From: Planctomycetaceae bacterium
GTDB taxonomy: Bacteria > Planctomycetota > Planctomycetia > Planctomycetales > Planctomycetaceae
Direction: 5' to 3'
Length of the DNA stretch: 64,000 nucleotides
NCBI GenBank assembly: GCA_947476295.1
Contig: CANJQC010000002.1
Location: forward strand, 62,001-126,000
Both the position numbers and the translations under genes were made by a program. Shown piece by piece: positions 21,451-27,941 of this stretch (position 1 is its first letter; each line of letters opens with the position of its first letter). The notes under the pieces were generated by a model, which was not told the DNA's origin, did no database searches, and was given only the letters and a program-made list of their open reading frames with translations.

Positions 21451-22311
21451 TCACAGTTGAGTCTTGCATATCTCGTCAGGCGCTGGCCTCAACTGCTGTC
21501 TTCGACATTCATAGAGTACGATTCCGGCTGCGACGGCTGCATTGAGCGATTTGACGCCACCGAGCATCGGGATGGCGACATGTGTGTCGCAAAGTGCCAG
21601 TAATTCCGACGCAACGCCCGACGCTTCACTGCCGATCAGCACGACAGTCGGTCGCACCAAATCGACGTTCCACAGCCTCGTCGCCGATTTCTCCAACGCC
21701 GCGATGATCTGAAACTCGGCCTGTTTCAGCTGCGCAACGGCCTCTGTTAGCTGCGGGACGCGAAAGATGCGTTGATGATTGACCGCACCTGCGGACGACC
21801 TGGCTACATGGGGCGTAATGGCAGATTGATAACGGTCGCCAATCACAATGCCATTCAGATTCATCGCATCGCAACACCGCAGGATGGCCCCAAAATTGTG
21901 TGCGTCCTGAATACGATCGCAGACCACGAATAAAGGAGGCAGCACTGGTGAATTGGATGTTGCGGAATTCGATACAGCATCCCGAGATGCTGTGCGGGCT
22001 GTAAGCAGCAGCGACTGGGAATCTTCGCAGGGAAATTCTCCCATGCGCGCCAGAAATCCCTGATGCTCGTAAGTCTGACTTAGTTGCGTCAGCCGGTCTG
22101 AGTCCACAAGTTTCGGCGCGATATCAAGTGGCTCGGACAAACGGTCAACTTCAGCAAGGTCGGACTCAGGCTGATTCAGATCGACGAACAACTCGACAAT
22201 CGGCCACCGCCCCGCTCTCAGAGTTTCAATCACGGCATGTCGGCCCCAGAGCCAGCTTCTCTGGTGACTCCCGGCAAGGCTCGAGGACGATCGTCGTTTT
22301 TGTGATGTCAT
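21451..22311 (-). CDS. rlmB: TrmH/SpoU-family RNA 2'-O-methyltransferase (RlmB-like)
   Basis: A 286-residue SPOUT methyltransferase. The N-terminal substrate-binding domain starts with WLWGRHAVIETLRAGR, as in RlmB, which methylates a conserved guanosine of 23S rRNA. The knot domain has motif 1, DRIQDAHNFGAILRCCDA, motif 2, VLIGSEASGV, and motif 3, IPMLGGVKSLNAAVAAG. A Ser/Ala-rich insertion lies between domains at about residues 110-125. S-adenosylmethionine is the donor. The exact RNA target is inferred. It is convergent with metX and divergent from map. Confidence 0.88.
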   Translation of the reverse strand: MTSQKRRSSSSLAGSHQRSWLWGRHAVIETLRAGRWPIVELFVDLNQPESDLAEVDRLSEPLDIAPKLVDSDRLTQLSQTYEHQGFLARMGEFPCEDSQSLLLTARTASRDAVSNSATSNSPVLPPLFVVCDRIQDAHNFGAILRCCDAMNLNGIVIGDRYQSAITPHVARSSAGAVNHQRIFRVPQLTEAVAQLKQAEFQIIAALEKSATRLWNVDLVRPTVVLIGSEASGVASELLALCDTHVAIPMLGGVKSLNAAVAAGIVLYECRRQQLRPAPDEICKTQL

Positions 22312-23331: not shown

Positions 23332-23451
23332 CTATGCCTGTACCTTGTGGCAACGCTTGCAGCGCACAGCGGCTCGGACGATCTTGCCGCATTTGGCACA
23401 GCGTTTTGACTTCTTGGCTAGTTTTGCTTTGGTTTGCGGTCGGTACACCAT
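23332..23451 (-). CDS. 39-residue basic zinc-ribbon microprotein
   Basis: A small ORF with a clear ribosome-binding site (GGAG 11 bases before ATG 23451). It encodes 39 residues, rich in Lys and Arg, with two C-x2-C pairs (CAKCG and CKRC) separated by nine residues, a zinc-ribbon knuckle. About ten basic residues precede the first pair. It resembles small ribosomal-protein-like or nucleic-acid-binding zinc ribbons but I could not match it to L32, L33 or L36. It follows the ABC exporter-like gene on the same strand. Longer in-frame extensions upstream run into that gene and lack a better start. Confidence 0.65.
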   Translation of the reverse strand: MVYRPQTKAKLAKKSKRCAKCGKIVRAAVRCKRCHKVQA

Positions 23452-23581: not shown

Positions 23582-25471
23582 TCATTGCCCTGCGTCCGTG
23601 TCACCACGAAACGGGTTAAAGTGGACGTATTCCCAGTGGCGGTAGAGCTCACTGGAACGCACGAGTTGATCGTGGACGCCATCGACGGCAATTTTCCCTT
23701 CGTGAATCAGTACGATCCGTGAGCACTTCTTTACAGTTGACAATCGTGTCGGCAGAAAGATCACCGTACGATTTCCTGAGATTCGCTGGTAGGCATCATC
23801 CAGCATTGCCTTGGTCGCCGCGCTCAGCATAGTGTTTGGTTCTTCGATCACCAGCAACGCTGGCTGACGTACGATTGCACGCGCAAGGCTCAATCGAAAC
23901 ATCTGTCCGCGATCCAGCGCGACGCCGTGCTCACCGAGCACTGTTTCGTAGCCCTTGGGGAGCGTTCGCACAAAGTGATCGGCATGCACCAGCTTCGCTG
24001 CATCAAGCGCCTGCTGACGAGTAATATCGGTCTGGCCGCAGGTGATATTTGCCAGCACGGTGGCGTTGAAAACAGGGTCGTTGCCACCGACCATGATGGC
24101 TTCGGCTCGGAGTGATTCCAGTGTCGCAACACGAATATTGCGACCATCAATTAGAATCTGGCCCTGATCCGGATCAATGAACCGTGGGATCATACTGGCG
24201 ACGGCAAACGCCGATTCACGTTGCAGAGACAACAACGCCAGTGTTTCACCAGAACCGACGCGAAGGTCCAGCCCTCGGATCAAACCCGGATTCTGAACGG
24301 GCGAAAACACGACCTGATCAAACACCAGACTCCGCGACATCGGTTCCAGAAAACTGGCCCCCGGAGCCTGACTCACCAGTGGCACGCGATTGATGAACGA
24401 GCTGACTTCTGCGGCACGAATATTTCCTTCAACCTTCAGTGCCTGCACGTCTTCAAACTGGCCAATGGCCACGGACAGGAAGTACAGGCATCCCACGATC
24501 AGCAGACCTGCCGATACGCCGATTGATCCGTCCCGCACGATATGCATCACCAGAAAAACGGCAGGCACCGTAACCAGCAGCAACAGTAAAACACGACGTA
24601 ACCAGACACCAAGAATTTGTTGCTTCAACACAGGACGGCAGCGTTCACGATACTGGATCAGATTTTTCAGAAACTGTTCCTGCTCCGCCTGCTCCATGCC
24701 GAAACCAGTCACAATGCGGGTCTTTCTTAATCCTTCTGCCATCCGCGCAAGACCTCGAGTCACCTGTTCGGACAACAACTGCAACGACGAATCGCTCCGC
24801 TGTGTTTCAAAGCGAATCGCGAATCGGATCAGCAGTAGAGGAACGAGCGTCTCCAAAGCCACACGCCATTGAGTCAGCATCGCCACGATCGCAAGTACCA
24901 GCACGTCTGCTGCCGTCGTCAATACGGCGCCTCCCCAGCGACTGCCGGCGGTCTCAAGGAATACGGTCGACTCTCGAAACAGTCGATCGGAGACACTCGC
25001 GTGTTCTCCGGAAAAATCGGACGGTTCCAGTCGGATCGATTGGCGATGAATGTGTTGCCGCAGTCTCTGAACTGAAGCCACGACGCGACTTTCCACTATC
25101 GCTTCCGCCACCGACCGAAGAGCCCAGCTTAACAGCACGAAGACACAAATCGTGGCAAGCAGCAATACGACAGCAGAACCGGTTGACTGCAAATGGTTTA
25201 CGGAACGGATCAGTCGTGAAAACACGCCGCCCACCGGATGCGAAGCAATTTGTTCGGCCAGAACCTTCAGCCCTGTACTGCGATCCTCAGCAACGGCCGC
25301 CGCAGAGCTCACAAACACAAGCAGCCAGAAGACAGCAGTCATACAAATCAGCGCGAGTGCCAGCGCCAGTGCTGAAAGCAAAGCACAGGCCGCAGCCGGA
25401 AGATAACGCACCCGGGCGAATGATCGAAACGAGATTATACGATCGAAGTCTTGTACGTTCTGATCGGACAC
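23582..25471 (-). CDS. ABC exporter-like protein with degenerate ATPase domain
   Basis: A 629-residue fused permease-ATPase of the exporter type. Six hydrophobic helices are suggested in residues about 25-330. The nucleotide-binding part (about 360-610) is recognisable by its order of blocks, but key residues are gone: the Walker A G-x-x-G-x-G-K-S is replaced by SLQRESAF (about 419), the LSGGQ signature by LDRGQ (about 520), Walker B ends in VIEEPNTML (about 540), and the H-loop histidine is lost in FLPTRLST. The frame is intact, so it looks like a maintained pseudo-ATPase. The GTG at 25471 follows a perfect GGAGG by eight bases; a TTG at 25546 would add 25 residues. Confidence 0.82.
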   Translation of the reverse strand: MSDQNVQDFDRIISFRSFARVRYLPAAACALLSALALALALICMTAVFWLLVFVSSAAAVAEDRSTGLKVLAEQIASHPVGGVFSRLIRSVNHLQSTGSAVVLLLATICVFVLLSWALRSVAEAIVESRVVASVQRLRQHIHRQSIRLEPSDFSGEHASVSDRLFRESTVFLETAGSRWGGAVLTTAADVLVLAIVAMLTQWRVALETLVPLLLIRFAIRFETQRSDSSLQLLSEQVTRGLARMAEGLRKTRIVTGFGMEQAEQEQFLKNLIQYRERCRPVLKQQILGVWLRRVLLLLLVTVPAVFLVMHIVRDGSIGVSAGLLIVGCLYFLSVAIGQFEDVQALKVEGNIRAAEVSSFINRVPLVSQAPGASFLEPMSRSLVFDQVVFSPVQNPGLIRGLDLRVGSGETLALLSLQRESAFAVASMIPRFIDPDQGQILIDGRNIRVATLESLRAEAIMVGGNDPVFNATVLANITCGQTDITRQQALDAAKLVHADHFVRTLPKGYETVLGEHGVALDRGQMFRLSLARAIVRQPALLVIEEPNTMLSAATKAMLDDAYQRISGNRTVIFLPTRLSTVKKCSRIVLIHEGKIAVDGVHDQLVRSSELYRHWEYVHFNPFRGDTDAGQ

Positions 25472-25657: not shown

Positions 25658-26638
25658 TCAGGCAAGGTCGCGGTCTTCGAACAGGATGAAGCCCAGAAGC
25701 AGCATGGCTGCGATATAAGCTAACGCATAGACAAGGCTAAAGCCCAGATAATCCTGCGGCACAATCCGCCCAGTCGCGACAGCCGACGAGACATTGAACG
25801 ACGAAAGCGACGGCACGACCATGGAAATCAACCTCGCCGTAAAAGTCACAGATTCATTCGCGTCGCCCGCCACACTGCGATTTACCATCACCTCGGTCAG
25901 ATTGCCAATCACAAACACCGCAAAACAAATCACCAGATTCATCACCATTGGAAGCCGAGTCGCCACAGTCACAGCAATCGCCCCCAACACACACACTTGC
26001 AGGAACGCCAAGGCCACGCCCGGCAGAATATGGCCGACGACTCCCATCCGATCCGGATGCGGAATCGGAAGTTCAACGCCAGAAACTTCATGCCACTGCC
26101 ACCGCGGAGTTATCTCTTCAGCCCGTTCGCGCTGGTCATAACCGACCTTGAAAAAGATCAGAACGGAAAAGATCGCCGTCAGAATGACGAACATCCAGAT
26201 CACAGCCTGCACGATCCCGACATATTTTCCCAGAATGAACTGACGACGATCGATCGGCTTGCTGAGCAGCGTCATGGCCGTCTTGCCTTCAATGTCGCTT
26301 GTAATGCTCGTTCCAGCGGTCCAGATCGCCAACAAGGCTCCGGAAATCAGTAATGTGGCAAGCCCACATTCGTTAAGCATCTTGACATCGTCTTCGAGCG
26401 TGAAAAACGGCATCACAGAATTGAGAATCAGAATAGCGGCGGAGATTACCAGCAACAAGACAAACAGCGGTTGCCGAACGGCCTCTTTCGTTGTCGCTCG
26501 GGCTATAACGCCGATTCGCGTACTGTACGAGAGCGCCACCAGCGCCACGACCAGTCCAAAAACAGTCAGCCAAGTCCATGTCCAGTCGATTTCTTTTGCA
26601 TCAATGGTGACTTGGGCAATCGTCAGGGCAAAATTCAT
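25658..26638 (-). CDS. ABC-2-type transporter permease
   Basis: A 326-residue multi-pass membrane protein. About six hydrophobic helices are visible; the stretch ATKEAVRQPLFVLLLVISA and the ITSDIEGKTAMTLLSKPIDR loop are typical of ABC-2 permeases of the NosY/YhaP sort, which pair with a separate ATPase. No ATPase gene lies next to it (the neighbouring exporter-like protein carries its own, degenerate one). A soluble loop of about 60 residues (RAEEITPRWQWHEVSG region) sits between helices. ATG 26638 was chosen; an in-frame ATG at 26707 has no ribosome-binding site either. Confidence 0.8.
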   Translation of the reverse strand: MNFALTIAQVTIDAKEIDWTWTWLTVFGLVVALVALSYSTRIGVIARATTKEAVRQPLFVLLLVISAAILILNSVMPFFTLEDDVKMLNECGLATLLISGALLAIWTAGTSITSDIEGKTAMTLLSKPIDRRQFILGKYVGIVQAVIWMFVILTAIFSVLIFFKVGYDQRERAEEITPRWQWHEVSGVELPIPHPDRMGVVGHILPGVALAFLQVCVLGAIAVTVATRLPMVMNLVICFAVFVIGNLTEVMVNRSVAGDANESVTFTARLISMVVPSLSSFNVSSAVATGRIVPQDYLGFSLVYALAYIAAMLLLGFILFEDRDLA

Positions 26639-26863
26639 CACAACGGTACTTTCAGATTCAATGCAAGAAACAGCGGACCCCGAGCTCATCCCGAGCCGCA
26701 TCGACATCTACGTTCGCACGTGAACAGACGTTGGATATTTCTGCCAGCGATGAAAAAGCCTTGAAAAACATGATTTTTTGGTCTCGCACGAGGAAGCTTT
26801 CCTGAAAATTGTGACTCCTGTAGCTTGCCTCTCTGGGGCGAATCGAGATTTTGCGAAGTCGAT

Positions 26864-27139
26864 TCATTGCCGAATCACAAAACCCGTAAACTCATTCGCA
26901 CCTTCAAACGTGTGCCGCTGGACGTCTGTCATCCCTGAACCAAATCGCTCTTGAAGCTTATCGATCAGCTGCTGAATACTTGCCGCAGACCCCGCAACGA
27001 CAACGTCCACGCGCCCGTCTGGCAGATTGCGGACAAACCCACGCAAGAACAGCCTCGAAGCGATCCGTTCCGTCGTCCAGCGAAACCCCACGCCCTGAAC
27101 TTGCCCCGAAAACAGAATCCGCTCAGTCATGTCGGACAT
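26864..27139 (-). CDS. acyP: Acylphosphatase
   Basis: A 91-residue cytosolic enzyme hydrolysing carboxyl-phosphate bonds. The substrate loop [12 protein letters not shown] carries the catalytic arginine and [17 protein letters not shown] the catalytic asparagine. Length is normal. The start at 27139 follows GAGAGG and overlaps the 3' end of the upstream methyltransferase gene by 17 bases, so the two are very likely cotranscribed. Confidence 0.92.
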
Positions 27140-27941
27140 TTGGAACCTCTCCCCATTGAACTCGATACTGATGACAGAAAATGCCAGCGGAGATCGCAAC
27201 GTTCAGCGAATCGGTACCGTTGAGCATTGAAATCGTCAGCCGATTCCTGAGCACACGCTGAACCTCGTCAGAAATGCCATCGTATTCATTGCCGAACACC
27301 AGCACCGTGCGTTCGGAAAATCGAAATTCGTCCAGACAAGTGGCATTGCAATCTAGCACTGTGCCGCAGACATTGAATCTGCGTTGCCCACACAGGTCAT
27401 ACAGCATTGAAGGCAATTCGTCCGTTTCAACAATCGGCATAAAAAGCACGTTGCCCATGGACACACGCAGCACGCGGCGTGAAAACGGATCAGCCGATCC
27501 TTTGCCAAAGATGACGCCATTTGCCCCGAATGCGGACGCTATCCGAATCAGTGCCCCCACGTTCTCGGGATCAACAACACAATCCACTGCAATGATCAAC
27601 GAAGGGCCGTTGGGCGGAATCCATTGGTCCGGATCTGGTACTGCCGGTCGAACGGCGCTGGCCATGACGCCGCAATGAAACGAAAACCCCACGAGTTCAT
27701 CCGCTAGGTCCGTTCGCAGTCTTAAGACCGAAACATCAGGCCGCAGAAATGGTTCACACGTCGCGAATTTTCTGTCACTCACCAGTACACACTGCACATC
27801 CAGCGGACTACGCAGCACGCGCTCAACAACCGTCACGCCTTCCGCCACAAACAGCCGTGCATCGCGCACGGCATTTTTGGTCTTCAGGCTCCTGAAGACG
27901 TCCAAACGCGGGTCGTCGAGCGTTTCAATTCGTTCGTGCAT
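27123..27941 (-). CDS. SpoU/TrmH-family RNA methyltransferase
   Basis: A 272-residue SPOUT methyltransferase, the second in this window. It has an N-terminal RNA-binding-like domain ([14 protein letters not shown] near residue 30), then motif 1, [19 protein letters not shown], motif 2, [10 protein letters not shown], and motif 3, [17 protein letters not shown]. The target is unknown; rRNA or tRNA ribose is expected. It shares only family motifs with the RlmB-like gene at 21.4 kb. It overlaps the acylphosphatase gene and is divergent from mtaB; the 127-base gap must hold both promoters. Confidence 0.88.

Follow-up and report, generated by a model that had tools for sequence, protein, structure and literature searches.

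A conserved pseudo-ATPase is very probably encoded by an ABC exporter gene in a 64,000-nucleotide stretch of DNA from a Planctomycetaceae bacterium (hereafter the window). The protein has the same full-length fold as MsbA and other type IV homodimeric exporters (TIGR02203, TIGR02204) but differs from them in having lost all nucleotide-site motifs except the Walker B glutamate. The complete reading, in which this pseudo-ATPase acts as a non-catalytic subunit or regulator of the adjacent ABC-2 permease, is given a probability of about 0.5. Degenerate ABC sites are known already; what is new here is the position of the exporter gene, which immediately follows a gene for a NosY-like ABC-2 permease, with no conserved ATPase gene adjoining the pair.

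Fold and nucleotide-site motifs of the exporter

The exporter gene and the regions of its product considered below are:

23582-25471, minus strand: putative pseudo-ATPase ABC exporter, a type IV MsbA-like half-transporter of 629 aa (Pfam and AlphaFold2 model)
24392-25411, minus strand: transmembrane domain (TMD), residues 21-360 (model and conservation)
23636-24331, minus strand: nucleotide-binding-domain (NBD) fold, residues 381-612, without a recognisable nucleotide site (Pfam, alignment and model)
24203-24229, minus strand: Walker A position, residues 415-423, SLQRESAFA replacing G-x-x-G-x-GK[ST]-[ST] (alignment and pattern search)
24068-24100, minus strand: Q-loop position, residues 458-468, with Gln replaced by Gly463 (alignment)
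23903-23917, minus strand: ABC signature position, residues 519-523, LDRGQ (family consensus LDxGQ) for LSGGQ (alignment)
23837-23860, minus strand: Walker B, residues 538-545, ALLVIEEP, with Asp replaced by Glu543 and glutamate E544 retained (alignment)
23747-23749, minus strand: H-loop (switch) position, T575 for His, within the conserved strand FLPxRLST (alignment)

The reading frame opens with a GTG codon at 25471 and its stop codon ends at 23582, a start backed by orthologues, one of which (L070, 82% identical) opens with MSDPNVQDFDRIIS. The initial annotation had described a full-length ABC exporter of 629 residues in an undamaged frame, and its coordinates, frame and length were all correct. 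Pfam matches were obtained to ABC_membrane (E=3.5e-11) and ABC_tran (E=1.4e-8), although the latter begins at profile position 28, leaving the P-loop part unmatched, and the NBD is absent from the genome's 59 PF00005 matches at E 1e-10 or better. The best NCBIfam matches, to MsbA-type models, reached only about one quarter of the required scores: 199 bits for TIGR02204 (cut-off 780) and 170 bits for TIGR02203 (cut-off 602). A single-chain AlphaFold2 model (pLDDT 88.8) was that of a complete type IV exporter with six long TMD helices, cytoplasmic coupling loops and a fused C-terminal NBD. The top Foldseek matches of this model were MsbA chains, and Z scores of about 30 were obtained against MsbA, TmrAB, Atm1 and CmABCB1 over nearly the full length.

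Alignment with canonical exporters from the same genome (L002 and L003) and from other genomes (L109-L114) confirmed that the P-loop lysine, LSGGQ and switch histidine are missing, as originally reported. The canonical Walker A block GGNGSGKST aligns with SLQRESAFA, placing Ala421 at the lysine position, and further losses beyond those first listed were observed at the A-loop Tyr (P391), the Q-loop Gln (G463) and the Walker B Asp (E543). The Walker B glutamate E544 is the sole nucleotide-contacting motif retained and is invariant among the orthologues aligned, whilst the D-loop Asp is Ser550 in the window protein yet Asp in most orthologues. A pattern search of the whole protein detected neither G-x4-GK[ST] nor SGG[QE], and G-x4-GK[ST] was likewise missing from every aligned orthologue. 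In the structure model the helix following the former P-loop strand begins at residue 418, ahead of the lysine position, and thus no phosphate-binding loop is predicted. A displaced but intact P-loop, raised by the initial annotation as an observation that would overturn its reading, is therefore ruled out by the pattern search and the model, and the structure prediction that it had suggested returned a full type IV exporter fold. Taken from sequence and predicted structure, the exporter would lack ATPase activity, in agreement with the pseudo-ATPase first proposed. Some residual nucleotide binding may persist because the Walker B glutamate is invariant.

Distribution, motif erosion and selection

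A protein search of 59 relatives identified an orthologue in each same-genus and same-family genome. In a profile search of the class Planctomycetia, 193 of 297 genomes matched at E 1e-118 or better, of which approximately 190 carry an orthologue; the weakest few of the 193 may be canonical MsbA, which elsewhere scores 1e-117 to 1e-129. One same-family genome (G334) gave no match at the E 1e-118 cut-off of this search. Of 199 genomes sampled across the phylum, those scoring above the cut-off all belonged to the same family apart from one with a canonical MsbA, and the degenerate clade was not found outside Planctomycetia. The exception, an above-threshold match outside the class (G112), has intact motifs and was rejected as canonical MsbA. 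Carriers of the orthologue include Fuerstiella sp. (L091), Alienimonas chondri (L097), a Schlesneria (L098) and Gemmataceae (for example L102, L103 and L108), which bears out the planctomycete origin assumed by the initial annotation. Three family-level groups (f1, f2 and f3) we take, from their named tree neighbours and general knowledge, to be Planctomycetaceae, Isosphaeraceae and Gemmataceae, respectively. All degenerate members fall on one side of a single branch with SH-aLRT support of 100 in an unrooted, undated tree, and this branch holds after removal of the motif columns and of long branches. A very diverged member of the clade (L178, 7128-9095, plus strand; 244 bits, branch length 2.9) has motifs that are eroded further and is still encoded directly behind an ABC-2 permease.

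The extent of motif loss differs between families. In the window's own family the lysine position is occupied by Ala in 29 of 38 rows and by Lys in none, the Q-loop Gln is present in 0 of 38 and the H-loop His in at most 1 of 38. The P-loop Lys is found in four of five Isosphaeraceae rows (the other having Arg), with Gln and His still present, and is kept in six of ten Gemmataceae rows, such that Isosphaeraceae and many Gemmataceae retain the P-loop Lys or the switch His. None of the three families retains the Walker B Asp or P-loop glycines 418 and 420, and nearly all rows have lost the signature Ser; the first Gly of LSGGQ is also changed in Isosphaeraceae and Gemmataceae, and both it and the Ser are altered in nearly all orthologues. 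Motif loss thus looks stepwise across families, and a single loss of function followed by more erosion is the simplest reading of a tree that is unrooted and gives no date. These intermediate stages in sister families would offer a natural series for exploring what an ABC scaffold can do without ATP.

Every within-genus pair compared gave a full-gene dN/dS (Nei-Gojobori) of 0.06-0.20, about 0.1, and the window's own pairs gave 0.03-0.07 over the NBD, demonstrating that the exporter gene is under purifying selection. Two checks set by the initial annotation, purifying selection on the reading frame and orthologues lacking the same residues, were borne out; recent decay, the reading that intact orthologues would have favoured, is ruled out by the orthologues together with dN/dS. 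Between two congeners (G000 and G012) the degenerate NBD is 90% identical, compared with 74% for the NBD of the canonical MsbA paralogue, whereas at family distance the degenerate NBD is the more diverged (44% identity against 57%).

Conservation of the NBD above the TMD is usual in ABC transporters, and it is notable that it persists here though the nucleotide site is gone. Within the family, conservation peaks at the pre-Q-loop helix, the Walker B strand, the signature helix and the H-loop strand. Of the NBD segments measured it is lowest at the P-loop block, which scores 0.56 where the NBD as a whole averages 0.69. Conserved TMD residues lie mostly in ICL1 (R138, H142, R143, R147 and D152), ICL2 (R252, E260, E263 and F267) and the linker, with few conserved columns in the membrane core. 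The strongly conserved TMD acids D152, E260 and E263 are in or beside the coupling loops, and the only conserved acid elsewhere is E222 (80%) in the TM4 helix. The conserved coupling loops suggest an NBD that still moves together with the TMD or serves as a brace for it.

Conserved gene pair with an ABC-2 permease

Two genes upstream of the exporter recur across loci:

25658-26707, minus strand: ABC-2 permease with a NosY-like fold, 349 aa, conserved upstream neighbour (PF12679 E=3.1e-7; NosY top structural match)
26864-27199, minus strand: acylphosphatase, frequent third gene upstream (PF00708 E=1.6e-20)

Of 66 testable loci, 62 have the permease gene directly upstream of the degenerate exporter gene and in the same orientation, and the pair spans families with otherwise differing neighbours; absence of this adjacency from the other 4 of 66 counts against a partnership. 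The only PDB matches of the permease model (pLDDT 76) with E under 0.001 were NosY chains (best E 8e-5, TM 0.40-0.47 of query), and a conserved segment of the protein reads EIEGKTAMTLLSKPINRRQF. No NosF-type ATPase gene adjoins the permease gene in the window, and none was seen to recur next to it across loci. The permease thus shares its fold with NosY of the NosDFY system, but NosY works with the ATPase NosF whereas the window permease is adjoined by an exporter-like pseudo-ATPase. In a crude survey of 20 ABC-ATPase regions in the same genome, a membrane protein was predicted next to most of them, and none stood out clearly as an orphan ATPase for the permease. Several Planctomycetia families have the permease but not the exporter, again with no ATPase gene evident beside it, and this persistence indicates that the permease has no strict need for the exporter. 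In four exporter-less loci (L171, L174, L177 and L179) the permease ORF is 529-627 codons and N-terminally longer than the 349 aa of the window protein.

The exporter probably has a job that does not involve ATP hydrolysis of its own, because the class keeps the degenerate version under selection beside a second membrane-protein gene. The other role envisaged by the initial annotation thus gains indirect support from selection and from the conserved pairing. We propose that an ABC half-exporter would have been inactivated in the distant past with retention of the full MsbA-type fold, and that the NBD, without a recognisable nucleotide site, would have been kept as a structural or regulatory module. 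The exporter would dimerise in the inner membrane and, having no ATP hydrolysis of its own, would serve the NosY-like permease as an accessory subunit or regulator in a putative complex; the permease would presumably draw its energy from an ABC ATPase acting in trans. It is possible, though we consider it doubtful, that an exporter family gave up ATP binding for good across the class to become the dedicated non-catalytic partner of an ATPase-less NosY-like permease, in a two-permease complex mixing type IV and type V ABC folds. To our knowledge, known degenerate ABC exporters retain at least one usable ATP site. The literature searched, outside which most subscription journals lie, yielded no description of a class-wide full-length exporter with essentially the whole site gone, and nothing relevant on planctomycete ABC-2 operons, pseudo-ATPase ABC exporters or this family. 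With a permease that lacks an ATPase gene as its conserved neighbour, the exporter allows the question of what an ABC scaffold can do without ATP to be tested in planctomycetes that grow in culture.

In 18 other loci an acylphosphatase homologue occupies the corresponding position, and L171, which lacks the exporter, also has an acylphosphatase-like ORF adjoining its ABC-2 permease. In the window the acylphosphatase ORF runs into the 3' end of the upstream methyltransferase ORF (27123-27941, minus strand); this and a second SpoU-type RNA methyltransferase gene (21451-22311, minus strand) lie on either side of the region, within 6 kb. Just downstream of the exporter, a 39-codon ORF (23332-23451, minus strand; MVYRPQTKAKLAKKSKRCAKCGKIVRAAVRCKRCHKVQA) looks like a small zinc-ribbon protein, with weak Pfam matches.

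Alternative roles for a degenerate exporter

The protein could be the degenerate half of a heterodimeric exporter in the style of TAP or TM287/288 with a canonical partner encoded elsewhere, an arrangement that we consider unlikely. Heterodimers with one degenerate site are common (PMC7756269) and canonical exporters are present in the genome, among them the MsbA orthologue L002, found in 58 of 59 relatives. However, L002 is equally present in genomes lacking the pseudo-exporter, such that its presence does not track that of the pseudo-exporter, and no canonical exporter was found among the conserved neighbours of pseudo-exporter loci. In human ABC exporters degenerate-site changes mostly affect the signature, the Walker B Glu and the H-loop, and ABCG5/G8 is highlighted as a case in which Arg replaces the Walker A Lys (PMC7756269), which agrees with the premise of the initial annotation that degenerate half-sites usually keep Walker A. 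TAP1/2, TM287/288, TmrAB and ABCG5/G8 resemble the window protein in having a degenerate NBD that remains under selection, but they mostly keep Walker A and one complete composite site (PMC7756269); the window protein keeps neither and has no partner half adjoining. As Walker A and signature are both lost from the same chain, established geometry indicates that both composite sites would be broken with any partner.

A nucleotide sensor or gating regulator resembling SUR or CFTR site 1, binding ATP or another nucleotide without hydrolysis and so controlling the neighbouring permease, would be consistent with the invariant Walker B Glu, the mostly kept D-loop Asp and the retention of Lys, Gln or His at the old positions in lineages outside the window's family, and SUR provides a precedent (PMC7756269). 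It nevertheless appears improbable, as all the P-loop glycines have been lost, together with the A-loop aromatic, Q-loop Gln and H-loop His, from the window protein and nearly every member of its family, and the P-loop block is where NBD conservation is lowest. The sulphonylurea receptors (ABCC8/9) are ABC exporter folds that regulate another membrane protein, as is proposed for the exporter as a non-catalytic partner of the permease, but they bind nucleotide, and the exporter has no homologous partner channel.

Transport driven by an ion gradient, or passive transport, as in the SLiPTs SbmA/BacA, is a still more doubtful role. SLiPTs are type IV exporter folds that shed ATP dependence (PMC13316013), and the TMD is kept in the exporter, which, like SbmA/BacA, would no longer use ATP hydrolysis. 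SLiPTs, however, have neither NBD nor coupling helices and rely on a conserved TMD glutamate ladder (PMC13316013), whereas the NBD is the best conserved part of the exporter, ICL1 and ICL2 are conserved and no ladder is present, E222 (80%) being the only conserved TMD acid away from the coupling loops.

A decaying pseudogene or sequencing artefact, of which simultaneous loss of every motif would be typical, is extremely improbable given dN/dS far below 1 and a frame that is open in nearly all orthologues (relaxed selection and broken frames were looked for in orthologues and not found), and chance or sequencing error is ruled out by recurrence of the same losses in every same-family orthologue aligned, these coming from all 17 other genomes of the genus and from 19 additional genera in the family.
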